From Thiocapsa marina 5811 (lineage in GTDB: Bacteria > Pseudomonadota > Gammaproteobacteria > Chromatiales > Chromatiaceae), in NCBI RefSeq assembly GCF_000223985.1, contig NZ_AFWV01000014.1, forward strand, positions 1 through 64,000: a stretch of 64,000 nucleotides of DNA, in the 5' to 3' direction. A program made the translations under genes and the position numbers. Within the stretch, counting starts at the first letter, position 1. Each line of letters opens with the position of its first letter. The notes below the pieces were generated by a model. It was not told the origin of the DNA. It saw only the letters and a program-made list of their open reading frames with translations, and did not search any database. Below are positions 1,656 to 59,244 of the stretch, piece after piece.

Positions 1656-1757
1656 TTTAAACCGCGTCCGCCACAGAGGCTAAGGACAGGCGGCATACCC
1701 GATTCACGGGAAAGCGGCTCATGTCTCACCCCGGGGCGAACACGGACGCGGCTTAAA
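1656..1757. repeat. TTTAAACCGCG-bounded intergenic element (unclassified interior)
   Basis: The left end reads TTTAAACCGCGTCCG and the right end CGGACGCGGCTTAAA, an inverted pair with one mismatch. It lies between ilvN and ilvC. Its right end contains the TAA stop codon of ilvN (bases 1753-1755). The interior does not match the A or B type of the family. Confidence 0.75.
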
Positions 1758-2244
1758 CGGTGAGACCCTTCTCGCCGCGCGAGATGCCGGTCGGTCCCGA
1801 GCGCACGACCTCGACGATCAGCCCTTCCGGCACGGCACCGATGAAGGCATCCAGCTTCTTGGAGGCCCCCGTCAACTCGATGACATAGCTGGTATCGGTC
1901 ACATCGATGATCTTGGCGCGGAAGATCTCGGTCAGGCGCTTGATCTCCTCGCGGTCCTGCCGCTCGGCACGCACCTTGATCATCATCATCTCGCGTTCGA
2001 TATGCGGACCCTCGGAGAGGTCGAGCAGCTTTACCGTGTCGATCAGCTTGTTCAGCTGCTTCTTGATCTGCTCGACCACGTCGTCGTTGCCCGTGGTGAC
2101 CAGGGTCATCCGCGAGAGTGTCGGATCGTCTGTCGGAGCGACGGTCAGTGATTCGATGTTGTAGCCACGGGCAGAGAAGAGCCCGGCGACGCGCGAGAGT
2201 GCACCCGCCTCGTTCTCCAGCAGCACGGCAATGATATGTCTCAT
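1753..2244 (-). CDS. ilvN: acetolactate synthase small (regulatory) subunit
   Basis: Regulatory subunit that activates the IlvB catalytic subunit and confers feedback inhibition by valine. The 163-residue length matches the IlvH/IlvN family. The N-terminal ACT domain begins MRHIIAVLLENEAGALSRV with the typical GLFSARGYNIESL segment, and a second ACT-like C-terminal half follows. It starts 31 bp after the ilvB stop codon, so the two subunits are probably co-transcribed. Its stop codon is provided by the end of a repeat element. Confidence 0.95.
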   Translation of the reverse strand: MRHIIAVLLENEAGALSRVAGLFSARGYNIESLTVAPTDDPTLSRMTLVTTGNDDVVEQIKKQLNKLIDTVKLLDLSEGPHIEREMMMIKVRAERQDREEIKRLTEIFRAKIIDVTDTSYVIELTGASKKLDAFIGAVPEGLIVEVVRSGPTGISRGEKGLTV

Positions 2245-2275
2245 GTCTTAAGATCTCTTTCGCTCGGGACGCGAT

Positions 2276-4063
2276 CTAGGCCAGCTCGCGATCCGACAGA
2301 CTCGGCGCCAGGTGCATCTCGTGGTGGCCCTTGCCGGCGGCGATCATCGGGTAGACGTTCTCGGTCGGATCCACGATGACGTCCATGAACACGAGACGGT
2401 TCTTCATCGCGAACGCCTCGGTCATCGCGGCCTCCAGATCGGCCGGCCGGTCGACCCGCATGCCGACATGCCCGAAACTCTCGGCGAGCTTCACGAAGTC
2501 CGGCAGGGCATCGACATAAGAGTTCGAGTAGCGGCTTTCGTAGAAGAACTCCTGCCACTGACGCACCATGCCCATGTAGCCGTTGTTGAGCAGGATGACC
2601 TTCACGGGAAGCCCGTACTGAAGGCAAGTCGCAAGCTCCTGAATACACATCAGGATGCTCGCCTCCCCGGAGATGCAGGCGACCTGCGCATCCGGAAACG
2701 CCAGCTGCACGCCCATCGCCGCCGGCAGCCCGAAGCCCATGGTGCCGAGACCGCCGGAGTTGATCCAGCGCCGCGGCTTGTCGAACGGATAGAACTGGGC
2801 GGCAAACATCTGGTGTTGGCCGACGTCCGAGGTGAGATAGAGGTCGCCGCCGGTCACCTTGTAGAGTGTTTCCACCGCGAACTGCGGCTTGATGGCAGCA
2901 CTGCTGCGATCGTATTGCAGACAATCCACGCCGCGCCATTCCGCAATCTTGGCCCACCAATCGGACACCGGTTGCTCCTCGGAGCGCGGAGCCAGCTCAC
3001 GATAGAGCTTCAGCATATCGGCGAGCACGTTCGCGACCTGTCCCACGATCGGGACATGGACCTTCACGTTTTTGGAGATCGAGGAGGGATCGACGTCGAC
3101 ATGGATGATCTTCGCATGCGGGCAAAAGTGCTCGATCTTGCCGGTGACCCGATCGTCGAAGCGCGCACCGATGGCGATCAAGACGTCGGTCTCGTGCATC
3201 GCCATGTTCGCTTCGTAGGTGCCGTGCATCCCGAGCATGCCGATAAACTGCGGATCGGTCATCGGATAGGCGCCGAGCCCCATCAGGGTGCTGGTGACCG
3301 GAAAACCGGTGGCACGAACGAGGTCGGTCAACTGCCCCGATGCCTCCCCGAGCACCACGCCGCCGCCGGTGTAGAAGACCGGCCGCTTCGCCTCGAGGAT
3401 CAGATCCACTGCCTTGCGGATCTGCCCGGGATGGCCTTTCAGCACAGGGTTGTACGAGCGCATCTTCACATCGCGCGGATAATCGTAGGGGATCTTGATG
3501 TTCGGATCCGTCACGTCCTTCGGGATGTCGACCACCACCGGCCCCGGCCGACCGCTCGTCGCGATATAGAAGGCCTTGCGGATGGTCACGGCGAGGTCGC
3601 GCACGTCCTTGACCAGGAAGTTGTGCTTCACGCAGGGCCGGGTGATGCCGACGGTGTCGACCTCCTGGAAGGCATCGCTGCCGATGACCGGGGTCGGCAC
3701 CTGACCGGTCAGGATCACCATCGGAATGGAGTCCATGTAGGCCGTCGCGATACCGGTGACCGCGTTGGTTGCGCCCGGGCCGGACGTCACGAGACAGACG
3801 CCGCACTTGCCGGTCGCACGTGCGTAGCCGTCTGCGGCGTGCGAGGCACCCTGCTCATGGCGGACAAGAATGTGTTTGACGGACTCCTGCCGAAACACCG
3901 CGTCGTAGATGTGCAGTACGGCCCCGCCGGGATAGCCGAAAACGAACTCGACGCCCTCGTCGGCGAGCGCTTGGACGACGATCTCGGCCCCGCTCAGCTC
4001 GACACCACTCCGCTCCGGCCGCCCCGGCTCAGCCCCTACGGATTGCGCTTCAGACAGTGCCAC
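2276..4063 (-). CDS. ilvB: acetolactate synthase large (catalytic) subunit
   Basis: Thiamine-diphosphate enzyme joining two pyruvates, or pyruvate and 2-ketobutyrate, at the entry to branched-chain amino acid synthesis. The 595 residues hold the N-terminal TPP domain with YPGGAVLHIYD and the catalytic glutamate in HEQGA (Glu70), a central FAD-type domain, and a C-terminal TPP motif GEAS..NNGYMGMVRQW from about residue 455. GEAS replaces the textbook GDGS, a variant I believe also occurs in other proteobacteria. About 20 N-terminal residues precede the conserved core, so a slightly later start is possible. First gene of the ilvBNC cluster. Confidence 0.96.
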   Translation of the reverse strand: MALSEAQSVGAEPGRPERSGVELSGAEIVVQALADEGVEFVFGYPGGAVLHIYDAVFRQESVKHILVRHEQGASHAADGYARATGKCGVCLVTSGPGATNAVTGIATAYMDSIPMVILTGQVPTPVIGSDAFQEVDTVGITRPCVKHNFLVKDVRDLAVTIRKAFYIATSGRPGPVVVDIPKDVTDPNIKIPYDYPRDVKMRSYNPVLKGHPGQIRKAVDLILEAKRPVFYTGGGVVLGEASGQLTDLVRATGFPVTSTLMGLGAYPMTDPQFIGMLGMHGTYEANMAMHETDVLIAIGARFDDRVTGKIEHFCPHAKIIHVDVDPSSISKNVKVHVPIVGQVANVLADMLKLYRELAPRSEEQPVSDWWAKIAEWRGVDCLQYDRSSAAIKPQFAVETLYKVTGGDLYLTSDVGQHQMFAAQFYPFDKPRRWINSGGLGTMGFGLPAAMGVQLAFPDAQVACISGEASILMCIQELATCLQYGLPVKVILLNNGYMGMVRQWQEFFYESRYSNSYVDALPDFVKLAESFGHVGMRVDRPADLEAAMTEAFAMKNRLVFMDVIVDPTENVYPMIAAGKGHHEMHLAPSLSDRELA

Positions 4064-4204
4064 CTCGGTGACCTCCGATCAGTCCCAGAAGGGTTCAAAA
4101 GCGGTCGAAGTTACCGCGATCCACGCAGCCGGTCAAGCAAGTCGATGAGCCGAAGCCGGGTACGGATTCGGTGCGCGCCCAAGACTCCCCGCCATCGCGG
4201 CGAT

Positions 4205-5260: not shown

Positions 5261-5495
5261 CTCGCACTCGGCTCCTGGGTGTCGCGACTGCGATACGCAC
5301 GACGACTGAAAAGGGATCTGGGGTTTTGGACGCCTCAGGCGCAGGCCGCAAGTATACCGGGGCATCCAACGCCCCGCGAACCGAACGGATCAACCGCGGC
5401 TTCGCCGAACCGGCATCGGACTTGGCATCCCGCGGTTGTTTCGATACCGGTAGACCAATACACTTCGCGCCTTTACGCTGCCGATAGTCTCGCCG

Positions 5496-7217: not shown

Positions 7218-7220
7218 TCC

Positions 7221-7265
7221 CAGACGCCAGACGCCAGACGCCAGACGCCAGACGCCAGACGCCAG
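7221..7265. repeat. heptanucleotide tandem repeat (CAGACGC)n
   Basis: Six perfect copies of CAGACGC plus a partial copy start 3 bases after the proS stop codon. Such arrays change copy number by slippage. A second heptamer array of different sequence lies at 25241. Confidence 0.9.
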
Positions 7266-7419
7266 CCGAGGCTCGACTCAAGCAAGGGCCAGGTCAAGAC
7301 TCACTGCGCCCCGAGCGGTCAATGCCACCCGACGACCTCAGACGACGCAGGAGGCAGGAGGCAGGACACTGGAAGCCCCTAACCATTGGAACCGCAAGAC
7401 ACACAGGACCTCACCCAAA

Positions 7420-7935
7420 ATGACGAAAGAAGCCTCCTTCGACCGCGATGCGCTCCTCGCCTGCGGACACGGCGAGATGTTCGGTCCGGGCAATGCCCAA
7501 CTGCCCGTGCCGAACATGCTGATGATGGATCGCGTGCTGCGCATCGCCGATTTCGGCGGCGCCAACGGCAAGGGCGAGATCTTGGCCGAGCTGGATATCA
7601 AGCCCGAGCTCTGGTTCTTTCAGTGCCATTTTCCCGGCGACCCGGTCATGCCGGGCTGTCTGGGCCTGGACGCCCTCTGGCAGCTCGTCGGCTTCTATCT
7701 GGCATGGATCGGCAACCCGGGGCACGGCCGCGCGCTCGGTGTGGGCGAGGTCAAGTTCACCGGGCAGGTTCTCCCGACCGCAAACAAGGTCACCTATCAC
7801 ATCGACATGAAGCGGGTCATCTCGCGCAAGCTGGTGCTCGGCATCGGCGACGGCGTGGTGCAGGTGGACGGGCGCACCATCTACACCGCCAAGGATCTGC
7901 GGGTCGGTCTCTTTACCTCGACCGAGGGTTTCTGA
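7420..7935 (+). CDS. fabA: 3-hydroxydecanoyl-ACP dehydratase/isomerase
   Basis: Dehydrates 3-hydroxyacyl-ACP and isomerises trans-2- to cis-3-decenoyl-ACP, the branch point of anaerobic unsaturated fatty acid synthesis. The 171-residue length and the hot-dog motif [20 protein letters not shown] fit FabA (E. coli 172 residues); catalytic His70 and Asp84 fall at the same numbers as in E. coli. No fabB follows; the next gene is convergent. Confidence 0.96.
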
Positions 7936-12909: not shown

Positions 12910-13261
12910 AGTGTCACTCGAGCGCCAGGGTCTTGCTGGAGATTGGCCGTGCCGATTCGCGTGCGCCCAAGCCATTGGTCGCCTTCCGATCGGTTCGCAG
13001 GCCCCTTCTATACAGGGCCAACTATGACGAGAAGCAGGGAGAAGGCAAGCAAAACACGACATTCGATCCTCGGCATGTCCGCCGCGGCGAGGCGCCTGAT
13101 GGCCTTGCTCGTCACTTCGGCCATCGCGGCACGTGGCGCAGAGCGCCAGGGGCATGCGTGACACCGCAGAGCGGGTGTCACGAGCGAGTGAGCTCGGGCC
13201 GTCAAAGCTCGGGCTGCCGAGCTGGATCCGGCTGGTCTCCCGAAACGAAACGGCCTGATCC
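12910..13261. other. divergent intergenic region, no gene seen
   Basis: This stretch separates the 1381-residue membrane-protein gene (minus) from the pst promoter region. A 45-codon frame at 13024-13161 has no visible ribosome-binding site or recognisable product. Promoters for the minus-strand gene probably lie here but none is clear. Confidence 0.4.
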
Positions 13262-13344
13262 AAACCGCGTCTCACCGGGATCAAGGGTATCTCCGAAGCC
13301 AAACGCACACTGCAAACGACGCCTATCGCTCCGGACGCGGTTAA
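13262..13344 (+). repeat. TTTAAACCGCG-family element, type B, solo
   Basis: Left end AAACCGCGTCTC, right end GGACGCGGTTAA. The interior segment ..ACGACGCCTATCGCTCCGG.. resembles type B copies at 14666, 46265 and 59159. It lies 30 bp upstream of the Pho box of pstS. Confidence 0.8.
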
Positions 13345-13373
13345 GCCCACTCCGAACACAACCTTTCGCAAAA

Positions 13374-14555: not shown

Positions 14556-14644
14556 TTTAAACCGCGCCCGGTGCGGCATGTGATGTTTTTGAACGGGATC
14601 GGCCTCGGCAGACTCGACGATTGTCGGAGACGGCGCGGTTTAAA
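14556..14644 (+). repeat. TTTAAACCGCG-family element, type A (left half of a composite)
   Basis: Ends TTTAAACCGCGCC and GGCGCGGTTTAAA form an inverted pair. The interior TGATGTTTTTGAACGGGATC and CGGCAGACTCGACGAT matches the copies at 36460, 38918 and 46157. It begins 3 bp after the pstS stop codon and is followed after a 21-bp AT-rich linker by a type B element. Confidence 0.9.
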
Positions 14645-14665
14645 GTTCTAAAAAATTTAAAATTC

Positions 14666-14749
14666 TAAACCGCGTCTCCACGAGGTTCGGAAAAATCCCT
14701 AATCCCGACACAAAGTGAAAATGACGCTTGTCGCTCTGGACGCGGTTTA
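14666..14749 (+). repeat. TTTAAACCGCG-family element, type B (right half of a composite)
   Basis: Left end TAAACCGCGTCTC, right end GGACGCGGTTTA. The interior ATGACGCTTGTCGCTCTGG is close to the copies at 46265 and, reversed, at 55712. With the preceding A element it forms a 194-bp unit. Confidence 0.9.
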
Positions 14750-14790
14750 GTAACGGTTCAAAAACTGTTAGCCATTCCGGTTCGTTCTCC

Positions 14791-32209: not shown

Positions 32210-32403
32210 CGCAGATGGCCGTGACAAACGTATGACTTCCCGCCCGTTCGACGGATCACGGGCGTCGACGATCGGGGCGGCACCCAAGAGACCGGTACGG
32301 AGCGCGGAACGGTCGATCGCCGTCGTGCATGGCCGCGCCGCCATGCGGGAACCCTTCCTGAGTAGAGCAATCGAGCGGATGCTGTTACGCTCGGAGATCG
32401 CCC

Positions 32404-32490
32404 TAAACCGCGTCAGCTCCAGCGGCCGTCAAGTCGGCCGGGGCCGATCCCATCCAAGAACATCGCATACCGCGCTTGGCGCGGTTTAAA
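32404..32490 (-). repeat. TTTAAACCGCG-family element, type A, reversed
   Basis: Ends TAAACCGCGTC and GGCGCGGTTTAAA. The interior GGGGCCGATCCCATCCAAGA is the reverse complement of the type A interior. It lies between the divergent TraR-like and small lysine-rich protein genes. Confidence 0.85.
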
Positions 32491-34232: not shown

Positions 34233-34419
34233 TCCCGGCTGCGCATGCCCGGAAGGCATCCAGCACCTGACGTCGCAAGTCTCGAGCAAACCGTCGCGGA
34301 CTTTTTCGTGGCCGTTGTCGTTGTCGTAATCGGATTCCGGACGACCACGACAACGAGCAGAGCCCTCGAGCGCTTTTCTCGGTTCGGCTCTGCCGGTAGA
34401 TCCTTTCCCCGAAATCACC

Positions 34420-34506
34420 TTAAACCGCGCCAGCTCCAACACACGTGAAGTCTGCCGGGGCCGATCCCATCCAAAAACACCCCATACCGCGCCGGGCGCG
34501 GTTTAA
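34420..34506 (-). repeat. TTTAAACCGCG-family element, type A, reversed
   Basis: Ends TTAAACCGCGCC and GGCGCGGTTTAA, interior GGGGCCGATCCCATCCAAAA. It lies between convergent genes, and its right end supplies the TAA stop codon of the TPR gene (34503-34505). Confidence 0.9.
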
Positions 34507-36437
34507 GCATCCGAGCGCTTGAACCAACCGCGCTTGGCTGCAACGGGCCTGACCCGCGCCTGTAAGCGCTTGGCGAGGGCGAAACGGCGCGCGTCGTCCT
34601 CGTCTTCGACCAGTGCCTCGAGATTTGCGATCAGAGCGTCCGCGGCAGCCTGATCCCCGCGCGCTCGGCTCAGCATCGCCAGTGCGCCGTAGAGCACGAA
34701 GATGTCCTGCACGTGCAGGCTCGGACTCTCGTAGAGCCCCTCCAGCAAACGCGCGGCTTCGTCGAGATCGCCGTCCTCGATCAGCATGACGGCCAGGTTG
34801 CAGCGCGCAAAGATGTAGTCCGGATGACGCGCAACCGCATCGCGAAGCAGGTCTCGCGCCTCCTGATCGTGACCCCGAGCGCTGAGGACCGCGGCGAGAT
34901 TGCCCAGTGCGACACGATGACCGGGGGCGTGCTCGAGGATCCGCTTCAACAGGATCTCCGCATCCGCATAGTCACGCGCGTTGAAACATTCGATCGACCG
35001 TCCGAGGAGCATATCGAGATCCTCGGGAAGATTGCTCGGCACGGGATCGCGTCTGATCTCGGTGTTGATCAACTTCACCTGCGTGACGTGCTCGCCGTCC
35101 CAAATCTCGAGCGGCTCGTCGCGCGGCAGCAGACCCTTGTCGTAGAGCGTGCGAAGAAACCCGAAGCGCGTCTGCTTGGTTCCGATCGGCAGGCGCGCAA
35201 ATCGTTTCAGACGCTCGGCCGCACCCGGATCGCCCCGTTCGGCGCGGTATTGGAGGATGAAGGCGACCAGACCGCGCAGGCCGTCGTCGCCGCCGACATA
35301 GAGTGCATCGAGAAAGTCGTTGGAGGCCGTCACCTTCGCGAGGTGCGAAAAGGCGTCGTTCCCGGCATCACGCATCCGGTTCAGCCAGGTCAGCGGCAAC
35401 GCCTGTCCGAGACCGAACACGGGCGGATAGGCCAGGGCATCGCCCGCGGCGTCGATCACGGTGCGACCCTCGAGGGCGGGTTTGAAATTCGGCAAGTGCG
35501 CGAGCGATGCCTTGCAGAGCGCCCGCGCCCGCTTTGCCTCGCCCAGCCGACTCGCCGCGCAGGCGGCCAAATGGCTCAGCATGGCCTGTTGCTGAGGCTC
35601 TCCGATACCGAACCAATCAGACCGCTCGACACGGGCGAAGGCGCTCAACGCGGCGTTGTCCTCGCCCAGCAGCAGCAGGGCATCGAGCTGGGGCACGGCA
35701 TCCTCGACCCGGCGAGCCGTCGCGGCGGCCAAGGGCGTCGTCAGGCCTCGGGCGCCGGTCTCGTCACCCTGATAGAGTCGCAAGCGCGCTGCCCATCCCA
35801 AGGCGAAGAGGTTGTCCGGATCCTCCTTCCAAAGCGCCAGGAAGGCCGCCAGGGCATCCTCGATGCGATCGAGATGGAATAGCGACATCGCGCGATTGTT
35901 CTTGGCCGGCGTCAGATCGACCCCGTCCAGCCAACGCACCACGCCGGCAAAATCATGCCCGCCCAGATGGAGCTTTCCGATATCGAAGCGCAGCATCTGC
36001 TCGGCGGTCGCGCTCGACCCGTCGGGCTGCCGCAGCAGATCCGCGCGTATCGCGGGCGCCATCGGAAACCCGCGCGTCTCGGCACCGAGCGCACGCAGCC
36101 GCTCTGCGGTGCGATCCGCCAACATGACATGCCCGAACTGCAGTGCGTACCGAAAGAGCATCTCTTGTGCAGGCAAGCTCTTGGGACGACGCTCCGCCCA
36201 ATCGAAGGCGGCGATGGCCGCAGCGCCGCTTCCCTGGCTACCCTCCAGCGCCTCCACGAGCAGGCGCCGGGGACCGCTTTGATCCGGGTGGGCCTCGATC
36301 AAGGCACGCAGCCGGCGAGCCGCGGTCGCGTACTCCCGGCGCTCCATCAGCCGCTCGATCGCCTTGAGCTGACTCGACAGCACGGCGGAGGCGCCCGTCG
36401 CGGGCTTGGACTTGGGCTTGGCGGACTTTTTGGACAT
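34503..36437 (-). CDS. tetratricopeptide-repeat protein
   Basis: A 644-residue soluble protein. After a lysine-rich start (MSKKSAKPKSKPATGAS) it consists of TPR-like helical hairpins, clearest near residues 25-70 and 480-600 (AEILLKRILEHAPGHRVALG, ARDLLRDAVARHPDYIFARC). No signal peptide or catalytic motif is visible. It probably acts as a scaffold. The stop codon is inside a repeat element. Confidence 0.75.
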   Translation of the reverse strand: MSKKSAKPKSKPATGASAVLSSQLKAIERLMERREYATAARRLRALIEAHPDQSGPRRLLVEALEGSQGSGAAAIAAFDWAERRPKSLPAQEMLFRYALQFGHVMLADRTAERLRALGAETRGFPMAPAIRADLLRQPDGSSATAEQMLRFDIGKLHLGGHDFAGVVRWLDGVDLTPAKNNRAMSLFHLDRIEDALAAFLALWKEDPDNLFALGWAARLRLYQGDETGARGLTTPLAAATARRVEDAVPQLDALLLLGEDNAALSAFARVERSDWFGIGEPQQQAMLSHLAACAASRLGEAKRARALCKASLAHLPNFKPALEGRTVIDAAGDALAYPPVFGLGQALPLTWLNRMRDAGNDAFSHLAKVTASNDFLDALYVGGDDGLRGLVAFILQYRAERGDPGAAERLKRFARLPIGTKQTRFGFLRTLYDKGLLPRDEPLEIWDGEHVTQVKLINTEIRRDPVPSNLPEDLDMLLGRSIECFNARDYADAEILLKRILEHAPGHRVALGNLAAVLSARGHDQEARDLLRDAVARHPDYIFARCNLAVMLIEDGDLDEAARLLEGLYESPSLHVQDIFVLYGALAMLSRARGDQAAADALIANLEALVEDEDDARRFALAKRLQARVRPVAAKRGWFKRSDA

Positions 36438-36459
36438 GAGAACCTCGAGACCTGAACAC

Positions 36460-36544
36460 TAAACCGCGCCCGGCGCGGTATGTGATGTTTTTGGATGGGA
36501 TCGGCCCCGGCAGACTTGACGACCGCTGGAGTCGACGCGGTTTA
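36460..36544 (+). repeat. TTTAAACCGCG-family element, type A
   Basis: Ends TAAACCGCGCC and GTCGACGCGGTTTA. The interior TGATGTTTTTGGATGGGATC and CCCCGGCAGACTTGACGA is the clearest type A sequence. It lies 22 bp upstream of the TPR gene start codon. Confidence 0.9.
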
Positions 36545-36607
36545 GCACAGATTGCGCTCGGAGCGAGCCGCTCGCCGGCAGCTCAAGCCACCGACCGCGC
36601 GGAACCT

Positions 36608-38778: not shown

Positions 38779-38917
38779 GGGGGCAGTGTGGAATGACCGT
38801 CGAGCGACTGCGCCGGCGGACGCGCGAGGCTATCGCAGCTTCAGGCGAGACCGCAACGACGACGAGGCGCGTTGGTCCGAAAGGCGTCGGGGCCAAGGTG
38901 TAGACTATCCATGCGTC

Positions 38918-39000
38918 TAAACCGCGCCTAGCGCGGTATATGATGGTTGAGGATGGGAGCGGCCCCGGCAGACTCGACGATCGTTGGAGCCGGCGCGGTT
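38918..39000 (+). repeat. TTTAAACCGCG-family element, type A
   Basis: Left end TAAACCGCGCC; right end GGCGCGGTT with the final TTAAA lost. The interior CCCCGGCAGACTCGACGATC matches type A. It lies upstream of the CWC protein gene. Confidence 0.8.
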
Positions 39001-39075
39001 CGGCGCCGCTCGTTCGGCGATGCCGCCGGACGCTCGATCACACCGCCCGCCAACACGACATCGAGAGCAACGCGC

Positions 39076-39471: not shown

Positions 39472-42126
39472 ATGACCAACAAGCCCGATATCGATCCCCA
39501 AGAGACACAGGAATGGCTCGATTCGCTCGATGCCGTGCTCGAGAACGAAGGCGTCGAGCGCGCCCACTTTTTGCTCGAGCGACTGATCGACAAGGCGCGC
39601 CGCTCGGGCGCTTATCTCCCGTTCACCGCCAACACCGCCTACGTCAACACCATCCCGGTGCAGCAGCAGGAACGCTTCCCCGGCGATCGCGCGATGGAAC
39701 GACGCATCCGCTCCTTCGTGCGCTGGAACGCGATGGCGATGGTGGTGCAGGCCAACCGGCTCTCGACCGAGCTCGGCGGTCACATCTCAAGCTTTGCCTC
39801 TTCCGCGACGCTGGTCGACGTGGGCTACAACCACTTTTTCCGCGCGCGCGACAAAGATCACGGCGGTGATCTCATCTTCTTCCAGGGCCACGCGGCGCCC
39901 GGCATCTATGCCCGCGCGTTTCTCGAGGGACGCATCAGCGAGGAGCAGCTCTACAACTTCCGCCAGGAGGTCGACGGCAACGGACTGTCGTCCTATCCGC
40001 ACCCTTGGTTGATGCCCAATTTCTGGCAGTTCCCGACCGTCTCGATGGGGTTGGGTCCGCTGATGGCCATCTATCAGGCACGCTTCATGCGCTATCTGAA
40101 CGACCGCGGACTGGTCGACACGAGCCAGCGCAAGGTCTGGGCCTTTCTGGGCGACGGCGAGATGGACGAGCCCGAATCGTTGGGCGCCATCTCCTTGGCG
40201 GCCCGCGAGCGCCTCGACAACCTGGTCTTCGTGGTGAACTGCAATCTGCAGCGTCTCGACGGCCCGGTGCGCGGCAACGGCAAGATCATCCAGGAGTTGG
40301 AGGCGGTCTTCCGCGGAGCCGGCTGGAACGTCGTCAAGGTCGTCTGGGGCAGCTACTGGGACCCCTTGTTCGCCCGCGACAAGCAGGGTCTGCTGGTGAA
40401 GCGCATGGAAGAATGTGTCGACGGCGACTACCAGGCCTACAAGGCCAAGGGCGGCGCCTACACCCGCGAGCACTTCTTCGGGAAATATCCGGAGCTCAGG
40501 GAGATGGTCGCCAACATGACCGACGAGGACATCTGGCGCCTGAACCGCGGCGGACATGACCCGGCGAAGGTCTATGCCGCCTACGACGCGGCCATGCGCA
40601 TGAACGGCAAACCGACGGTGATCCTGGCCAAGACGGTCAAAGGTTACGGCATGGGTGTCGCCGGCGAGGGCATGAACATCACCCACTCTCAGAAGAAGAT
40701 GGGTGAAACGCATCTCAAGGCCTTCCGCGACCGCTTCAATATTCCGATCTCGGACGACCAGATCGGCGCCGCGCCCTTCTACAAGCCACCGCAGGACAGC
40801 CCCGAGATGCAATACATGCACGAGGCGCGCGAGCGGCTCGGCGGCTTCCTGCCGGCGCGTCGCGACGAGGCCGAAGTGCTGCCGATCCCCGAGCTGGATG
40901 CCTTCAAGCCGCTCCTGGAAGGCAGCGGCGACAAGGAGATGTCGACCACCATGGCGCTGGTGCGCATCCTCACCATCCTGGTGCGCGACAAGGCGATCGG
41001 CAAGTACCTGGTCCCCATTGTTCCGGACGAGGCACGCACCTTCGGCATGGAGGGCATGTTCCGACAACTCGGCATCTACTCCTCCATCGGCCAGCTCTAC
41101 GAGCCGGTCGATGCCGATCAGGTCATGTACTACCGCGAGGACAAGAAGGGTCAGATCCTCCAGGAGGGCATCAACGAAGCGGGCGCCATGTCGTCCTGGA
41201 TCGCCGCGGCCACGGCCTACGCGAACCACGGCCAGAGCATGATCCCCTTCTACATCTACTACTCCATGTTCGGGTTCCAGCGGATCGGGGACCTCGCCTG
41301 GGCGGCGGGCGACATGCAGGCGCGCGGCTTCCTGATCGGAGGCACCGCCGGACGCACCACGCTCGCCGGCGAGGGACTGCAGCATCAGGACGGTCACAGC
41401 ATGGTGGTCGCCGCAACCATCCCGAACTGTGTCGCCTACGACCCGGCCTACGCCTACGAGCTCGCCGTAATCGTCCAGGACGGCCTGCGCCGGATGTATC
41501 GGGAGAAGGAAAACGTCTTCTACTACGTCACGGCGATGAACGAGAACTACGTGCAGCCGGCCCTGCCGGAGGGTGCCGAGACAGGGATCCTCAAGGGCAT
41601 GTATCCGGTCCATCAGGGCGAGGAGCACACCCATCGGGTGCAGCTGCTCGGTGCCGGGACCATCCTGCGCGAGGTCTTGGCCGCGGCCGAGCTGCTTGCA
41701 AAGGACTTCAATGTCGGCGCCGATGTCTGGAGCGTGACCAGCTTCAACGAGCTGCGACGCGAAGGCATCGACGCGGAGCGCTGGAACATGCTCCACCCCG
41801 ACCAGCCCCAGCGTACCACCTATGTCGAGGAGCAACTGGCCGGGACCCAAGGCCCGATCATCGCCGCCACCGACTATGTCCGGACCTACGCCGACCAGAT
41901 CCGCCCCTATGTTCCGCGACACTACCTGGTGCTGGGTACCGACGGTTTCGGGCGAAGCGACATGCGCAGCCAGCTGCGAAAATTCTTCGAGGTGAATCGT
42001 TACTACGTCGTCATCGCGGCCCTGAAGGCGTTGGCCGACGAGGGCGAGATCCCGACCGCGACGGTCTCCGAGGCGATCCGGAAATACCGCATCGACCCGG
42101 AGAAACCCAACCCGGTGACGATCTGA
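39472..42126 (+). CDS. aceE: pyruvate dehydrogenase E1 component
   Basis: Thiamine-diphosphate E1 subunit decarboxylating pyruvate and acetylating the E2 lipoyl group. The 884 residues match homodimeric AceE (E. coli 887). The TPP motif GDGEMDEPES runs on to VNCNLQRLDGPVRGNGKI; the AceE-specific GSYWDPLFARD and the C-terminal GTDGFGRSDMR also match. It heads aceE-aceF-lpd, but two repeat elements separate it from aceF by 220 bp. A TATAAT lies 46 bp upstream. Confidence 0.97.
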   Translation: MTNKPDIDPQETQEWLDSLDAVLENEGVERAHFLLERLIDKARRSGAYLPFTANTAYVNTIPVQQQERFPGDRAMERRIRSFVRWNAMAMVVQANRLSTELGGHISSFASSATLVDVGYNHFFRARDKDHGGDLIFFQGHAAPGIYARAFLEGRISEEQLYNFRQEVDGNGLSSYPHPWLMPNFWQFPTVSMGLGPLMAIYQARFMRYLNDRGLVDTSQRKVWAFLGDGEMDEPESLGAISLAARERLDNLVFVVNCNLQRLDGPVRGNGKIIQELEAVFRGAGWNVVKVVWGSYWDPLFARDKQGLLVKRMEECVDGDYQAYKAKGGAYTREHFFGKYPELREMVANMTDEDIWRLNRGGHDPAKVYAAYDAAMRMNGKPTVILAKTVKGYGMGVAGEGMNITHSQKKMGETHLKAFRDRFNIPISDDQIGAAPFYKPPQDSPEMQYMHEARERLGGFLPARRDEAEVLPIPELDAFKPLLEGSGDKEMSTTMALVRILTILVRDKAIGKYLVPIVPDEARTFGMEGMFRQLGIYSSIGQLYEPVDADQVMYYREDKKGQILQEGINEAGAMSSWIAAATAYANHGQSMIPFYIYYSMFGFQRIGDLAWAAGDMQARGFLIGGTAGRTTLAGEGLQHQDGHSMVVAATIPNCVAYDPAYAYELAVIVQDGLRRMYREKENVFYYVTAMNENYVQPALPEGAETGILKGMYPVHQGEEHTHRVQLLGAGTILREVLAAAELLAKDFNVGADVWSVTSFNELRREGIDAERWNMLHPDQPQRTTYVEEQLAGTQGPIIAATDYVRTYADQIRPYVPRHYLVLGTDGFGRSDMRSQLRKFFEVNRYYVVIAALKALADEGEIPTATVSEAIRKYRIDPEKPNPVTI

Positions 42127-42228
42127 ACCGCGCTAAACCGCGCTGAACCGCGTCCGTCAGCCCATGCGGCGAGACGGCACGTCGGCCGACGACGAAGAAC
42201 CAAAGAAGGGCTCGGTCGACGCGGTTTA
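42125..42228. repeat. TTTAAACCGCG-family element with triplicated left end
   Basis: Three left-end copies in tandem (GAACCGCGC, TAAACCGCGC, TGAACCGCGTC) begin at the last base of the aceE stop codon. The right end is GTCGACGCGGTTTA. The interior is unclassified. Confidence 0.8.
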
Positions 42229-42249
42229 GGATATTTATCTATCGATGAC

Positions 42250-42333
42250 TGAACCGCGTCCGGGACGAAGCGCTCGGGTCAAGCCGAGCGGCGCAACACC
42301 GGGATCTGGTGTGATCGCCCCGGACGCGGTTTA
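42250..42333. repeat. TTTAAACCGCG-family element next to aceF
   Basis: Left end TGAACCGCGTCC, right end GGACGCGGTTTA, with an inner hairpin CGCTCGG..CCGAGCG. Its last bases run directly into the aceF ribosome-binding site GGGAGGA. It is separated from the previous element by a 21-bp AT-rich linker. Confidence 0.85.
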
Positions 42334-42346
42334 GGGAGGACAGAGC

Positions 42347-46151: not shown

Positions 46152-46156
46152 TATGC

Positions 46157-46244
46157 TTAAACCGCGCCCAGCGCGGTATGCGTAGTTTGTTGGATTGGCC
46201 TGGCCGCGCCGGCTCCGACAATTGTCGGAGCCGGCGCGGTTTAA
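46157..46244 (+). repeat. TTTAAACCGCG-family element, type A (composite left half)
   Basis: Ends TTAAACCGCGCC and GGCGCGGTTTAA. The near-perfect inner stem CCGGCTCCGACAATTGTCGG reads on into AGCCGG. It begins 5 bp after the lpd stop codon. Confidence 0.9.
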
Positions 46245-46264
46245 GGTATTAAAAAATATTAAAT

Positions 46265-46352
46265 TTTAAACCGCGTTTCACCGAGCTCGAGGACATCCCC
46301 GAGGCCGAACGCAACTTGCAAATGACGCATGTCGCACTGGACGCGGTTTAAA
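46265..46352 (+). repeat. TTTAAACCGCG-family element, type B (composite right half)
   Basis: Ends TTTAAACCGCGTTTCA and GGACGCGGTTTAAA, interior ATGACGCATGTCGCACTGG. A 20-bp AT-rich linker joins it to the preceding A element, giving a 196-bp unit. It ends 3 bp before the stop codon of the Kunitz gene. Confidence 0.9.
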
Positions 46353-47144: not shown

Positions 47145-47233
47145 TTTAAACCGCGTCCGTTGCAACAGGCACTCTTCTCACGCTGACTCCGCGTCGCAAT
47201 CATTCAAAGGCGTCTCAGCAGACGCGGTTTAAA
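47145..47233. repeat. TTTAAACCGCG-family element (unclassified interior)
   Basis: Perfect inverted ends TTTAAACCGCGTC and GACGCGGTTTAAA; the interior matches neither A nor B. It lies 7 bp upstream of the cupin-like gene start codon, so that gene's leader runs through it. Confidence 0.85.
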
Positions 47234-47506: not shown

Positions 47507-47574
47507 AAATGGCCTTGTATGCCCTTAGTTCCAGGTCGCTCGTTCTGAGCACATCAACGAACGCGCCTTCTCTC

Positions 47575-47660
47575 TAAATCACGTCCGACGCCGAGGCGCT
47601 CGGTACCCGCACCGTCGAGCGTGACGACGAGTCGACCTACCGGCGCGGGACGCGGCTTAA
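47575..47660. repeat. degenerate TTTAAACCGCG-family element
   Basis: Left end TAAATCACGTCC is degraded; right end GGGACGCGGCTTAA is clear. The right end supplies the TAA stop codon of the rubrerythrin gene (47657-47659). Confidence 0.55.
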
Positions 47661-48076
47661 GCGTCGAGGTTGTCGAGCGCCTTCTGGAAGCGGTTGGCGT
47701 GCGAGCGCTCGGCCTTTGCCAACGTCTCGAACCAATCCGCAACCTCGTCGAACCCTTCGTCGCGGGCCGTCTTGGCCATGCCGGGATACATATCGGTGTA
47801 CTCGTGGGTCTCGCCCGCGATGGCTGCACGCAGGTTGTCGCCGGTCGGACCGATCGGCATTCCGGTGGCCGGGTCGCCGACGGCTTCGAGATATTCGAGG
47901 TGGCCGTGTGCATGGCCGGTCTCGCCTTCCGCAGTGGAACGGAAGACGGCTGCCACGTCGTTGTAGCCCTCGACATCGGCCTTGGCGGCGAAGTAGAGAT
48001 AGCGGCGATTGGCCTGGGACTCGCCCGCGAAGGCCTCCTTCAAACTCTCTTCGGTTTTGCTGCCCTTGAGCTCCAT
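47657..48076 (-). CDS. rubrerythrin-like diiron protein
   Basis: The 139-residue four-helix bundle starts [20 protein letters not shown]. It carries the diiron ligands in [36 protein letters not shown] and AERSHANRF. The C-terminal rubredoxin domain of classical rubrerythrin is absent, as in sulerythrin-type proteins. Peroxide reduction is the family role, useful in an organism shifting between anoxic and oxic conditions. The stop codon is provided by a repeat element. Confidence 0.9.
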
Positions 48077-50256: not shown

Positions 50257-50266
50257 ACGCGGTTTA
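50257..50266. repeat. solitary right end of the TTTAAACCGCG family
   Basis: ACGCGGTTTA occurs alone; no convincing left end is visible within 110 bp upstream. Possibly a decayed copy. Confidence 0.4.
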
Positions 50267-50272
50267 GACTAG

Positions 50273-53480: not shown

Positions 53481-53496
53481 GGTCCGCTGAAACACC

Positions 53497-54888: not shown

Positions 54889-54896
54889 GAAAAGCC

Positions 54897-55714
54897 ATGT
54901 CGACGATCCCGAGCCCGGTCGTTCCGAACCCTTGGTCATCTCTGCGTCGCTTCACCGATGCACGCATCGCATTGGGACGTGCCGGCGGCAGTCTGCCGAC
55001 ACAGGCGCATCTCGCGTTTCAGCTGGCCCATGCGCAGGCCCGCGATGCGGTCCACCTTTGGATGCAGAGAACATCGCCGCGCACCTCGACGCACGCGGCT
55101 GGACGAGCCTGCGGCTGCGCAGCGCGGCTGCGAGTCGCTTCGAGTACCTGCAGCGTCCCGACATGGGGCGTCGGCTGGATATCGAGTCCCGTGCCTTACT
55201 CGACGATGTCGCGAGCGCGTCCGATGCCGAACCGGATGTCGTCTTCGTGATCGCCGACGGGCTCTCGGCGCGAGCGATCCACGAAAACGCCCTGCCCTTC
55301 TTGGATCGGATCATCCCGGATCTGCTCGGCGCAGGCTGGCGGGTCGGTCCCGTTCCGATCATCGAGCAGGGTCGGGTCGCGATCGGCGACGAGATCGGCG
55401 AGCGGTTGGGTGCCGAGATCCTGGTGATCTTGATCGGGGAACGACCGGGGCTGAGTTCGCCGGACAGTCTCGGGGTCTACCTGACCCATGGTCCGCACGT
55501 CGGCAAAACGGATGCGGATCGCAACTGTCTGTCCAATATCCGCTCGGCGGGCCTGGGTCACGAGGCAGCATCCTACAAACTGCGTTATCTTCTGGATGAG
55601 GCGCGACGCCGCCGAATCTCGGGCGTCTCGCTCAAAGAGGACGCATCGTCGCCGGAGCATTTGGAAAGTCACGCCGACGCCATCACCTTCCTGTTGCCGA
55701 ACACCGTACGCTAA
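54897..55714 (+). pseudogene. eutC: ethanolamine ammonia-lyase small subunit, frameshifted
   Basis: The first frame reads [20 protein letters not shown] and on to [16 protein letters not shown], matching the EutC N-terminus. The expected continuation, [20 protein letters not shown] to the end ITFLLPNTVR, is in the next frame. The switch lies at about 55055-55065 and looks like a one-base change. The gene starts 8 bp after eutB. This is a true frameshift mutation or a sequence error. Its TAA stop is the first bases of a repeat element. Confidence 0.8.
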
Positions 55715-55795
55715 ACCGCGTCCAGAGCGACATGCTCACTTTCGCGTGAGCTCGAAGTTGGGTGCATCCACCGCTCTTCGCGGAGACGCGGTTTA
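55712..55795 (-). repeat. TTTAAACCGCG-family element, type B reversed (composite)
   Basis: Left end TAAACCGCGTCC, right end GACGCGGTTTA. Read on the minus strand the interior GCATGTCGCTCTGGACGCGG matches type B. It supplies the eutC stop codon. Confidence 0.85.
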
Positions 55796-55817
55796 GAATG
55801 TTATATTTTTCAAAATC

Positions 55818-55904
55818 TTAAACCGCGCCAGCTCCGACAACGATCGGGGCCGCTGCGGCCAAGCCAATTCAACAAACTACACAGACCGCGCCGGGCGCGG
55901 TTTA
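55818..55904 (-). repeat. TTTAAACCGCG-family element, type A reversed (composite)
   Basis: Ends TTAAACCGCGCC and GGCGCGGTTTA; the interior is the reverse of type A. A 22-bp AT-rich linker separates it from the reversed B element, so the pair is the composite unit in inverse orientation (193 bp). Confidence 0.85.
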
Positions 55905-56142
55905 GAAACGACCGAACGAGGTCGCTCTACCGAGCCGAGGCGGAGTTTTCGCCGCATTGCATGCACTCGGCGCGCCGGACCGGCGTTGCGCATCCTCGCC
56001 GCGCAGGTCGGCACGCCTCGTCGTCACGTCCCGACGCGCTCGGCACGCACCCTGCCTTCCGAAGGAACCCACGCGTGCGCCTGATCTGCAGGGAGCGACA
56101 GTTCGCAGACAATCTTCCAAGCCGTATCGGACATCGACCGAC

Positions 56143-57063
56143 ATGCTCACGACCCTGAGTCTCTTCGCCGTTCTGGCCGCAGCCGCGATCCCGGCCGGGG
56201 TACACCTTGGCTTCCGCGCACCGCGACTCCGCGAGACCGGTACGCCAGCGGACTACGGCCTCGACTTCGAAGCCGTTCGCATCCCGACGGTGCGTCGCCG
56301 ATCCCTTTTCGGCTGGCTGCTTCAGGTACCGGACTCGACACGCACACTCGTGATCCTGCACGGATGGGGCGGCAACGCCGAGCTGATGCTGCCTCTGGCC
56401 ATCCCCTTCCGAGAAGCCGGCTTCAACGTCCTGCTCATCGACGCCCGCAATCACGGCGGGAGCGACACCGATACCTTTTCCTCCCTGCCTCGGTTTGCCG
56501 AGGATCTCGGCATGGCCATCGCGTGGCTCAAGCGGCATCGCCCGGGAGCCACCGACTGCGTCGCCGTGCTCGGACACTCCGTCGGGGCCGGAGCCGCCCT
56601 GTTCGAGGCATCGCGCAACCCCGAGATCGCGGCCGTCATCAGCATCGCGGCGTTCGCACACCCCGCTCGCGTGACCGAGGCATCGGTGCGTCACCTGCAC
56701 CTGCCTGCTCCGATTGTCCAGGGCATCATCCGCTACGTGGAATGGCTGATCGGACACCGCTTCGACGCCATCGCACCCGTGAACACGGTCACCCGAATCA
56801 CCTGCCCTGTCTTGCTCGTGCACGGCCGGGCGGATCGCGTGGTTCCGGTGGAGGATGCACGCCTGATCCACGCACGATCCTGCGGAGAACATGTGCGTCT
56901 CCTGGAGATCGACGGCGCCGATCATGATTCGGTCGATCGCATCGAGGACCACGTCGGCGCCCTGCTCGAGTTTCTCCGGCGGCAGTGCGCCGTCGCGGAT
57001 TCGGCCGGAGCGCCGCCGAGGCGCGGGCGGGAAAGCGTCGAGCCACCCGCAGAAGCGACGTAG
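56143..57063 (+). CDS. alpha/beta hydrolase with N-terminal membrane anchor
   Basis: The 306-residue protein starts with a hydrophobic segment (MLTTLSLFAVLAAAAIPAGV). It continues as an alpha/beta hydrolase: VILHGWGGNAELM with the oxyanion-hole HGWGG, LIDARNHGGSD, nucleophile LGHSVGAGAA near 145, the acid in VHGRADRVVPV, and a histidine in DGADHDS. The substrate is unknown. It stands alone, with a composite repeat unit upstream. Confidence 0.82.
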   Translation: MLTTLSLFAVLAAAAIPAGVHLGFRAPRLRETGTPADYGLDFEAVRIPTVRRRSLFGWLLQVPDSTRTLVILHGWGGNAELMLPLAIPFREAGFNVLLIDARNHGGSDTDTFSSLPRFAEDLGMAIAWLKRHRPGATDCVAVLGHSVGAGAALFEASRNPEIAAVISIAAFAHPARVTEASVRHLHLPAPIVQGIIRYVEWLIGHRFDAIAPVNTVTRITCPVLLVHGRADRVVPVEDARLIHARSCGEHVRLLEIDGADHDSVDRIEDHVGALLEFLRRQCAVADSAGAPPRRGRESVEPPAEAT

Positions 57064-57146
57064 GGGCAAGGTGCCGACAGACGTCGCCTCCACGGCCCCG
57101 CAGCTGAAAGCTGGAGGCCGGACTCCCGCCGCTGTATCATCGCTGC

Positions 57147-58067
57147 GTGAACCTCCGAGACCTCAAATACATCCTCGCCGTCGCCGAGACACGCCACTTC
57201 GGGCGCGCCGCGGAGCGCTGCTTCGTGAGTCAGCCGACCTTGAGCGGACAGATCAAGAAGCTCGAAGAGGAGCTCGACGTGGTCATCTTCGAGCGGACGA
57301 ACCGCTCGGTCGAGATCACACCGGTCGGCGAGGCGATCCTCGCGCATGCGCGCCTTGCCTTGGAGCAGGCCCAGGCCATCGAACAGGTCGCGCGCGCGCA
57401 TCAGGATCCGCTCGCCGGCCCGCTGCGCATCGGGGCCATCCCGACACTGAGCCCTTACCTGATTCCGCAGATCCTGGTGCCGCTGAAGCGGACCTATCCG
57501 AATCTGAAGCTGATCCTGTCTGAGGAGATCACGGAGCTGCTCCTCGGCCGCCTCGTCCGGCACGAGATCGACGCCGCGCTGCTCGCCACACCGGTCGACG
57601 ACACGGATCTGGACACGATGCCGCTGTTCGACGAGCCCTTCTGGCTGGCGCATCCGCGCAACGACCCCCTGTACGAGAAGGACGAGATCACGGCGCAAGA
57701 CCTCGAAGAGGTCGATCTCCTGCTCTTGGCCGACGGACATTGCCTCACCCACCAGGTCATGGAGGTCTGCCGTCTCGCGGAGCGGCCGACGAAGGGCGAG
57801 ATGGCTGACCTGCGCGCCGCGAGCCTGGAGACCCTCCTCCAGCTCGTGGGTGCCGGCTTCGGCTGTACCCTCGTCCCGGCATTGGCGATCCGCGGGGCCT
57901 GGATGACCGACAGCGGCATCATCGCACGCCCGCTGGACAACCTTCCGGATGCGTTCCGCCGCATCTCGTTGGTCTACCGTCGCAGCTTCCCGCGACGCGA
58001 GGCGCTGCAGGCCTTTGCCGACGTCATTCGGCAGAACCTCCCGAACACGGTCAGACGTCTGAGCTGA
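57147..58067 (+). CDS. oxyR: hydrogen-peroxide-sensing LysR regulator OxyR
   Basis: Transcription factor activated by disulfide formation under peroxide stress. The 306 residues start at a GTG with MNLRDLKYILAVAETRHFGR, a LysR helix-turn-helix. The redox segment GHCLTHQVMEVC places both sensor cysteines at residues 199 and 208, as in E. coli OxyR. LPALAIRGA-like VPALAIRGAW and the C-terminal RRSFPRREALQ also fit. Confidence 0.94.
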   Translation: MNLRDLKYILAVAETRHFGRAAERCFVSQPTLSGQIKKLEEELDVVIFERTNRSVEITPVGEAILAHARLALEQAQAIEQVARAHQDPLAGPLRIGAIPTLSPYLIPQILVPLKRTYPNLKLILSEEITELLLGRLVRHEIDAALLATPVDDTDLDTMPLFDEPFWLAHPRNDPLYEKDEITAQDLEEVDLLLLADGHCLTHQVMEVCRLAERPTKGEMADLRAASLETLLQLVGAGFGCTLVPALAIRGAWMTDSGIIARPLDNLPDAFRRISLVYRRSFPRREALQAFADVIRQNLPNTVRRLS

Positions 58068-58435
58068 TCCCGATCAGAGAATCATCGGTTTTGCGCCGCT
58101 CGACGCGCAGATTCCGGCGCGCAACATTCGAAACGAATTCGTTCCCGTTCAGCACCTTTTGTATTGCAAATCCCGACGCTGCACGCACGTTGACCCAGCA
58201 GGGCCGAACGTCACTTCGTTGCGGAAAAGAATCATGGGTGTTGCGATGCCGACAAAAATTTCGTCTTGCGCTAGACTTGACGTGGGGTCAACGACAAATC
58301 GAACGATTTGGTCTGTTGCGAAAAGGCTACAAATCCTGAGTAGCCAGGGGTTCGGGCAAGATGGCAAGACTTGTGCTTTGGAGAAAGCAAGTCGTCATCG
58401 TCCCTCTACGGACCCATTGCCAGGGGATACGCACC
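58068..58435. other. intergenic region, no gene seen
   Basis: No convincing reading frame. A TTGAC..GTCAA inverted pair near 58276-58290 might be a regulator site or part of a promoter for the 65-residue gene, but nothing firm can be said. Confidence 0.4.
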
Positions 58436-58633
58436 ATGAGCACACAACGATCACTCGCATTCTGGGAACTGTGCCGTCAAGGACTTCCGCTGCTCGCGGA
58501 TGCGGCCGACGACTGCTGGGAGCGCGGCAAGCGGTTCGAGCTGCGAAGCGACATTACGGTCACGAAGTCGCTGAAGGTCCTTATCGACCGGTGCAACTGG
58601 GAGATCGAGCGCACGACCACCCGCGCGGCCTGA
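58436..58633 (+). CDS. small protein of unknown function
   Basis: A 65-residue protein, MSTQRSLAFWELCRQGLPLL.., mostly helical, with no signal peptide and no motif I recognise. The start was placed at the ATG after GGGGATACGCACC; a longer upstream frame is less protein-like. Confidence 0.55.
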   Translation: MSTQRSLAFWELCRQGLPLLADAADDCWERGKRFELRSDITVTKSLKVLIDRCNWEIERTTTRAA

Positions 58634-58712
58634 TTCGAATCCGGCGCACGTGCAACCGAGTCCATACCCTCTCTCGGCGCACGGATGCGCCGGCCGCGCG
58701 CTCGATGCCGTG

Positions 58713-59156
58713 ATGAGTGATCTGGAAGGTTATCTGATCATCGAGACGCGTGGGGATCGGCCCGGTCTCGTGCGCGTCTTCAGCTCACCGCAGAATCCGA
58801 CGCCTTCGGACGTCGCGGCAGCCGACCCGACCCGTCCGCGTATCCGCTATGCCGCCTTTTTTCCTGCACTCCACGTCGCCCGGATGCACGCACAAACAGC
58901 ACTCAGGCGCAGCATGCTCGACGCGGAGGCCGGCCTCTACCGGACCGATCCGGTGACTGCGGCCGCCGCCGTCGATGCAATTGATTTGAGCCATCGCCGT
59001 GTCTACCTAGCCCCCGAGATCGAGTCCGACCCGGGCTTCCGTGCCGCGCGCGTGAAACGGAGCAGGCGTCATCGCCTGGCGAACCACATCTGGACGGCGG
59101 TCGGGGTCTTGGCGCTGATCCTGCTGTTCTTGTTCGCCCAGATCCCGGTTTTTTGA
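58713..59156 (+). CDS. protein with C-terminal membrane helix, unknown function
   Basis: A 147-residue protein, MSDLEGYLIIETRGDRPGLV.., with a soluble N-terminal part containing YAAFFPALHVARMHAQTALR, a basic stretch VKRSRRHR and one C-terminal helix (IWTAVGVLALILLFLFAQIP). It looks tail-anchored. The start at MSDLEG is favoured over one 21 codons earlier. An element end lies 3 bp past its stop. Confidence 0.6.
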   Translation: MSDLEGYLIIETRGDRPGLVRVFSSPQNPTPSDVAAADPTRPRIRYAAFFPALHVARMHAQTALRRSMLDAEAGLYRTDPVTAAAAVDAIDLSHRRVYLAPEIESDPGFRAARVKRSRRHRLANHIWTAVGVLALILLFLFAQIPVF

Positions 59157-59158
59157 GT

Positions 59159-59244
59159 CTAAGCGGCGTCACTCCAAAAGCCGGAAAAATCCTTGAGCCC
59201 GACACGACATGACAGTGACGCATTTCACTCCGGACGCGGTTTAA
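59159..59244 (+). repeat. TTTAAACCGCG-family element, type B, degraded left end
   Basis: Right end CCGGACGCGGTTTAA is intact; the left end has decayed to CTAAGCGGCGTC. The interior CGGAAAAATCC..GACGCAT matches type B. It ends 4 bp before the ATG of the DUF389 gene and so covers that gene's leader. Confidence 0.75.

Follow-up and report, generated by a model that had tools for sequence, protein, structure and literature searches.

The window analysed here, the first 64,000 nucleotides of contig NZ_AFWV01000014.1 of Thiocapsa marina 5811 (assembly GCF_000223985.1; genome G000, 5.59 Mb, where the window lies on contig C49), contains 17 members of a family of short repeats plus one solitary end, identified by a covariance model combined with an end-motif search. 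These elements are, judging from sequence comparison, very probably non-autonomous transposons, i.e. miniature inverted-repeat transposable elements (MITEs), of the IS630/Tc1-mariner type. Three features that characterize IS630-type MITEs are found in them: they duplicate a TA dinucleotide, their terminal repeats are homologous to those of IS630 insertion sequences (ISs), and they are too short to accommodate a transposase. The first-pass annotation had listed about 18 elements, which agrees with the present count if the solitary end at 50257 is included, and had proposed a MITE-like family moved in trans, a proposal strengthened by the TA duplication, by the YTAR target (Y, pyrimidine; R, purine) and by the IS630-homologous outer ends; the architecture of the doublet as a unit, the YTAR target itself and the placement at stop codons are additions to that first reading.

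The family was delineated from a sample of 270 elements (the window and 107 fetched loci), nearly all of them 86-92 bp long, among which two classes, A (105 elements) and B (92), predominate, the remainder forming small groups and singletons. A single profile orients 263 of the 270 with a margin of at least 4 bits, so their interiors are diverged homologues and not unrelated inserts; the original picture of variable interiors, with some copies sharing only the ends, is thus replaced by one of diverged members of a single oriented family, and the TC or CC recorded after the ends was correct, the two variants going with the two classes. The consensus starts with TAAACCGCGtCC.G.GcG..atGcg..gtTt and ends with G.G..GaCGCGGTTTA, and an extra inner palindrome can be seen by eye in type A. 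Many elements are paired: when two elements 9-29 bp apart are defined as a doublet, 91 doublets of about 192-195 bp are obtained, 83 of them with a spacing of 17-19 bp, and by the sign of the profile score the two halves are convergent in all 91 (two with a margin below 4 bits). Orientation of the A and B seeds was assigned by eye, ahead of the profile; that it is real is argued for by the 11 doublets lying outside both classes, which have the same spacing and the same orientation. In each 88-90-bp half, a long outer end recurs as a short inner copy of 11-14 bp, the inner ends matching the outer ends within the half (C..G in A, T..A in B), and the spacer between the halves is 88% AT versus 42% in the outer flanks.

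Comparison of orthologous sites in relatives, among them syntenic stretches in up to ten of these (genomes and loci are cited below by their G and L labels) revealed four clean empty sites with a TA duplication. A doublet in G010 (L138), found on the other strand in G002 (L140), reads ATTAAACC..GGTTTAGT versus ATTAGT in G001 and G007; a single element in G003 (L131) reads CTTAAACC..GGTTTAAG versus CCTAAG in G001; and the doublets L014 (Thiocapsa KS1) and L024 face gap-free empty matches across both flanks in G001 (92%) and G004 (95%), respectively. The target duplication for which a check at empty sites had been recommended is therefore present at all four, the TA is duplicated, and the element proper extends from AACC to GGTT. 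Among 47 units that were not picked by the TTTAAA search pattern and that retain TA at both ends, 46 lie in YTAR (TTAA 16, CTAA 14, CTAG 14, TTAG 2), as compared with 676 of 3236 (20.9%) non-coding TA sites in the background. An IS630 transposon reportedly prefers CTAG, to go by the title of a reference.

Which transposase might recognize such ends? A search of the genus with DDE_3 returned 48 rows, and 1 of the 30 loci fetched (L171, in G006) has related ends on both sides, TAAACCGAGCC..ATACGTAATTTTTCC and TAAACCCCGCCCAGAGCGGGATACGTAATTTTCATG, the last being close to the B end TAAACCGCGTCCAGAGCGACATGCGTCATTTTCATG; its transposase belongs to IS630 according to NCBIfam (155.2 bits, cut-off 100), with Pfam DDE_3 present. 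Further open IS copies occur among 146 genomes of the bacterial family in G160 (89%), G073 (80%) and G129 (73%, three copies), and another is present in the Thiocystis metagenome-assembled genome (MAG) behind L011 (G168, 72%), which also carries elements; the right end of the G168 copy (L239) was looked for and not found. When ends were compared over positions 10-38, i.e. with the shared first nine bases excluded, eight IS right ends gave the outer ends of type B scores of 8.9 to 37.6 bits and six IS left ends gave scores of -3.2 to 13.7 bits, versus a mean of -55.0 and a maximum of 34.3 for 200,000 window 38-mers, a background whose tail is expected to include the window's own elements. For the outer ends of type A, 0.000055 to 0.002 of the background reaches the score, against right and left IS ends alike, and the inner ends fall within the background (fractions 0.003 to 0.50). 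By this measure, the outer ~38 bp are homologous to the termini of an IS630-family element from the same bacterial family; in the interior beyond the first ~45 bp no homology to the IS was seen by eye. As to the earlier suggestion to look for a transposase flanked by family-like ends, L171 has related ends on both sides, and the exact TAAACCGCG occurs at IS630 ends in G129 (L196), G168 (L248) and a remnant in G001 (L212); the remaining ends that were read deviate from it by at least one base. This remnant (L212:1293-1850) harbors a family doublet inside its terminal repeat, at TC-TA-GA with the TA doubled: a passenger element within the end of its likely mover. Six IS copies, inspected by eye, also lie in YTAR.

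Several observations weigh against MITEs of the IS630 type. Transposition itself was not observed. In place of AACCGCG, the majority of IS ends have AACCCCG or AACCGAG. No intact close IS relative was found in nine element-rich genomes (at least 30 scored elements each): the matches in G000, G002, G004, G008, G043, G057 and G162 are 22-31% identical, and the closer ones in G001 and G153 are damaged pieces. Among the loci of the genus that were fetched (30 of 48 rows), the sole copy with such ends on both sides resides in G006, which lacks the elements. Draft assemblies may conceal a multi-copy IS at contig ends; in Allochromatium palmeri (G172) and a Lamprocystis MAG (G176), repeated pieces of IS630 transposase lie at contig borders, which suggests a multiplied IS copy. 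As for the target, the relatives lack a TA at the 59158 site (TCCAAG and others), CCAAAT or a similar sequence stands opposite the G007 doublet L142, and the sites of 13259, 32402 and 38916 are empty in relatives without offering a clean TA. Finally, inner ends match outer ends within each half, which transposition of doublets alone would not require.

The elements of the window are listed below.

14556..14644, plus strand: type A half of a doublet (element list; model, 92.2 bits); the TA and two further flanking bases on either side are counted in these coordinates.
14645..14663, unstranded: 19-bp AT-rich spacer of this doublet (element list).
14664..14751, minus strand: type B half of the same doublet (element list, model).
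46156..46245, plus strand: type A half of the doublet that follows the lpd stop at a short distance (model, gene prediction).
46246..46264, unstranded: 19-bp AT-rich spacer of the 46156 doublet (element list).
46265..46352, minus strand: type B half of the 46156 doublet (model); the entire ~195-bp doublet is a dispersed repeat.
55710..55797, plus strand: type B half of a doublet (element list, model).
55798..55816, unstranded: 19-bp AT-rich spacer of the 55710 doublet (element list).
55817..55906, minus strand: type A half of the 55710 doublet (element list, model).
42142..42230, plus strand: first half of the old, diverged aceE-aceF doublet (model; doublet present in the window and seven relatives).
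42231..42247, unstranded: 17-bp AT-rich spacer of the aceE-aceF doublet (element list).
42248..42335, minus strand: second half of the aceE-aceF doublet (model, relatives).
1656..1757, unstranded: old 102-bp single lying at the stop of gene 1753-2244 (minus strand) (model, gene prediction).
13259..13346, minus strand: single type B (model; site empty in G001 and G003).
32402..32490, minus strand: single type A (model; present in G004, empty in G007).
34419..34507, minus strand: single type A that gives the TAA stop of gene 34503-36437 (minus strand) (model, gene prediction).
36458..36546, plus strand: single type A (model; doublet at the same site in G004 and G003).
38916..39004, plus strand: single, A-like (model; absent at the site in five relatives).
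47145..47233, plus strand: single of another subfamily (model; orthologues in G002 and G007).
47573..47661, minus strand: degenerate single that gives the TAA stop of gene 47657-48076 (minus strand) (model, E=0.089).
59158..59245, minus strand: single, B-like (model; absent at the site in seven relatives).
50257..50268, minus strand: solitary end, also present in relatives (end-motif search).

The covariance model, built from 54 elements of which three are window copies, finds 16 places at E<0.001 in addition to 47573-47661. A few corrections apply to the positions given by the first-pass annotation: two starts are moved (42125 to 42142 and 13262 to 13259), 1656-1757 measures 102 bp, and the listed copy at 47573 is degenerate. 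Seven relatives contain an orthologous segment of element size at 1656-1757, the five relatives lacking 38916 retain 42-48 other bases at that site, and the solitary end at 50257 adjoins a site that carries a doublet in G002 and G010. The segment 39472-46352 is the pyruvate dehydrogenase operon aceE-aceF-lpd, with the conserved doublet between aceE and aceF and another shortly past lpd; at 42120-42145, before the aceE-aceF doublet, one or two extra end-like repeats (TGAACCGCGC, TAAACCGCGC) occur in some species.

Contrary to what would be expected of chance occurrences, TTTAAACCGCG with at most one mismatch has 21 sites in the window versus a mean of 0.44 in 100 shuffles, its exact form occurs 152 times in G000 versus 0 for the reversed control, and TAAACCGCG occurs 895 times versus 41, which places the ends well above chance frequency. 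Eight of the 11 genomes of the genus have 383 to 1581 TAAACCGCG sites each; the other three (G005, G006, G009) have 6 to 21, under their own controls, although G005 nonetheless yields 5 covariance-model matches. In the bacterial family at large, 27 of 146 genomes yielded matches to the model, and so did 12 of 61 genera; 30 candidates per genome were scored, so that a count of 30 means at least 30. A paired-end scan of a named species collection gave at least 99 loci; among the matches listed, 98 belong to Chromatiaceae (Thiocapsa, Thiobaca, Thiocystis, Allochromatium palmeri, Lamprocystis and one further member), and the single locus from elsewhere, L106, comes from a deltaproteobacterial MAG and is unrelated and A-rich inside (it was excluded from the covariance model and the folding test, and is counted in the 270 elements). 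What L106 carries, at 260-356 and 1425-1522, is a distinct palindromic repeat of 97-98 bp, A-rich in its interior, whose ends resemble those of the family. Neither an Rfam search of the window at gathering scores nor a tRNA search of the window returned a match, and no description of the family was recognized in titles and the beginnings of abstracts, which does not prove its absence from the literature.

What is the unit that moves? At the level of sequence, A-spacer-B is one dispersed repeat, spacer included: among the matches listed, the window doublets have copies at 78-93% identity in G000 and seven relatives, and in the site comparisons doublets are either absent or present as one ~192-bp unit. 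One could argue instead that the doublet is not a unit at all and that a second element repeatedly inserts beside the first, at a preferred site 16-19 bp away. Such serial insertion would account for each half having matching ends of its own, and the eleven doublets outside classes A and B, alike in spacing and orientation, are in keeping with it. It is nevertheless rather unlikely, given that the spacer is dispersed together with both halves, that entire doublets have empty counterparts at the G010/G002 site, L142, L014 and L024, and that doublets at different sites are up to 96.4% identical (L022 and L029 of T. roseopersicina).

The position of the elements relative to genes, which were predicted with a simple codon-score gene caller that may produce false gene ends, was evaluated for 167 units, a sample enriched for TTAA flanks by the search pattern (38916, 47573 and 59158, with degenerate ends, lie outside it and were located by the predicted gene list). 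Tandem, convergent and divergent gaps hold 81, 38 and 33 units, respectively, versus shares of 0.52, 0.23 and 0.25 of intergenic bases; the spread thus matches the intergenic bases, and a terminator-like placement, tried as an explanation, was not found among the 167 units. The TAA of the element is the predicted stop codon of the neighboring gene in 76 of the 167, and of the gene ends within 60 bp of a unit, 82 lie at offset 0, 28 before it and none beyond. The excess persists in the pattern-free subset, where 19 of 47 units lie at stops, versus background YTAR sites of which 82 are at stops and 594 in intergenic DNA (odds ratio 4.9, p=3e-6); in this sample, 82 of 187 TAA and TAG stops are preceded by a pyrimidine. 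Did these insertions shorten the proteins? In all seven interpretable comparisons, the element-free orthologue stops at the same codon (TAA in 3, TGA in 4), as does an extra case (L131 versus G001, TAA), implying that they did not. Of 57 eligible units, 26 entered this test and 15 regions were fetched: four of the seven informative comparisons align past the stop (L024 twice, L014, L093) and three only up to it (L057, L025, L068), and among the other eight, four (all against L040) were misaligned with no stop at that place and four held an element themselves. The former statement that all copies lie between genes or at their extreme ends holds when judged by the predicted genes, with two exceptions: 13259, which lies within the 5' part of a predicted open reading frame (ORF) of uncertain start, and 47145, which overlaps a weak ORF prediction.

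For MITEs of the IS630 type, these features could be connected as follows. Acting in trans, an IS630 transposase would have bound the outer ends and carried the element, by a cut-and-paste mechanism, into the TA of a YTAR target, duplicating the TA. Since the stop codons TAA and TAG are themselves TAR, those following a pyrimidine would be ready-made YTAR targets, and with AA following the TA at the start of the element, insertion would rebuild TAA and leave the protein intact. Harmful insertions elsewhere would presumably be removed by selection, which would explain both the intergenic and the stop-codon placement; selection and target choice at stops are indistinguishable in these data. A tentative and more specialized version is possible, in which the doublet is a two-part transposon with strong IS630-type ends across a fixed AT-rich hinge, the spacer helping the two ends to meet by countering the stiffness of very short DNA, and stop codons are its normal landing site because the AA start would rebuild TAA upon entry into TAA or TAG.

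How old are these insertions? Recent movement, as the near-identical copies L022 and L029 could be taken to indicate, was rejected, because both sites are shared with another species (L098 and L024), so that the burst predates those species splits. The one-species insertions 38916, 59158 and L142 may be younger, or may have been lost elsewhere. Turnover between singles and doublets is seen at 36458: the single A of the window corresponds to A-spacer-B in G004 and G003, and in G010 only the start of A is left, followed by the spacer and B; a second such site was found by sequence (L116:1489 single, L119:1450 doublet), and two more differ by gap length only. The direction of these changes is inferred. 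The A element at 36458 bears a B-type base at its 3' end, as expected from recombination between the repeated ends, and singles might thus arise in part by loss of one half through recombination between repeated CGCGGTTTA ends, and perhaps also from halves moving alone. The B-type base occurs in just 2 of 25 single A elements, so that most singles have no recombination signature; crossovers within the shared repeat would be traceless.

The first-pass annotation had also considered a structural RNA or DNA repeat class, each copy of which could fold into a hairpin; in this view, the elements would serve a host function, for instance at mRNA 3' ends or in termination, and would have spread by recombination. 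On both strands, the elements do fold more strongly than shuffles (z -3.5 to -3.9), and the terminal stem has both-side changes at 5 of 11 pairs, yet two of these pairs lie in flanking target bases and the interior alone has a z of about 0, which means that the folding excess comes from the terminal repeats only; likewise, the RNA consensus structure over all classes consists of the terminal stem, with no conserved interior structure. The aceE-aceF doublet is kept in eight species, but of its 49 predicted pairs 4 are compensated and 14 are broken in some species; these features hint at a later use of this copy by the host. With, in addition, a spread over gaps that follows intergenic share without terminator-like bias, clean empty sites with TA duplication, and none or few elements in three of 11 genus genomes, a hairpin class maintained for host function is very improbable as the origin of the family.

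The mover could also belong to another TA-duplicating family. IS711 of Brucella is a member of the IS5 group. Both a YTAR target and TA duplication are described for it in the available part of one report (PMC2266754), but the outer ends match IS630 ends over 38 bp, and an IS5-group mover is, with the transposase searches covering the IS630 (DDE_3) and Y1_Tnp types, scarcely credible. Even less so are REPIN-like elements moved by a RAYT (Y1 transposase): the paired inverted units with a spacer recall REPINs and BIMEs, G000 has eight Y1_Tnp matches (L108-L115), and an end pair with 2 mismatches in each end lies ~1.3 kb before one Y1 domain (L110:101-188), but none of the eight domains is flanked by an end pair within the fetched stretches (up to 1.5 kb on each side), and the elements show TA duplication and IS630-like ends, which are not known as RAYT features. 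The eight Y1 matches may belong to a separate repetitive extragenic palindromic (REP) system in G000. A reading as integron attC sites was set aside on account of the TA duplication and the genome-wide dispersal.

As very probable IS630-type MITEs, the elements add a large family to the purple sulfur bacteria (eight genomes of one genus each contain 383 to 1581 end sites) and would offer a clear and testable explanation for the spread of a selfish element through a compact genome whose genes stay unbroken: the YTAR target favors stop codons, and the stop is restored by the bases with which the element begins. A natural test of end pairing in short Tc1/mariner elements would be provided by the doublet, with its fixed convergent arrangement and AT-rich spacer. 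For annotation, the family would account for many of the 3' ends, and of the repeats between genes, in Thiocapsa and its relatives.

Where do these elements belong among known repeats? REPINs and BIMEs are inverted units with a spacer, present in high copy number and intergenic; the family described here differs by its TA duplication and IS630-like ends, with no link to a RAYT found at the eight loci. TA duplication is shared with IS630/Tc1-mariner sequences, for which ISY100 is a model that moves by cut and paste with duplication of TA, according to the passages available (PMC2170065), but the present elements carry no transposase. Correia/NEMIS and ERIC, also short inverted-repeat elements with TA at their termini, are alike by description, and the doublet form was not met in the available passages of the review that treats them (PMC2229807). 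BOX of Streptococcus pneumoniae is, in the parts seen of PMC3049150, likewise a composite of modules (125 BOX built from 422 modules) and often provides the stop codon of its neighbor (in 36 of 58 overlapped coding sequences, with truncation lacking strong evidence), so that the stop-codon effect has a precedent; BOX has several modules, whereas the family here has two facing halves. By analogy, the closest known system in kind is RUP of pneumococcus, 107 bp long and present in 108 copies, with IS630-Spn1-like ends, TA targets and intergenic location, proposed to be moved by IS630-Spn1 and, according to the passages available of that review, the only bacterial case with an IS of matching ends (PMC2229807); its density is greatest 50-150 bp from genes (as given in part of PMC3049150). 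The two families are alike, by these descriptions, in short size, IS630-like ends, TA target and intergenic site. Unlike RUP, the elements of Thiocapsa and its relatives form convergent doublets with an AT-rich spacer, have diverged into many subfamilies and are placed at stop codons; in one genus, eight genomes have hundreds of end sites each, and model matches occur in 12 genera.

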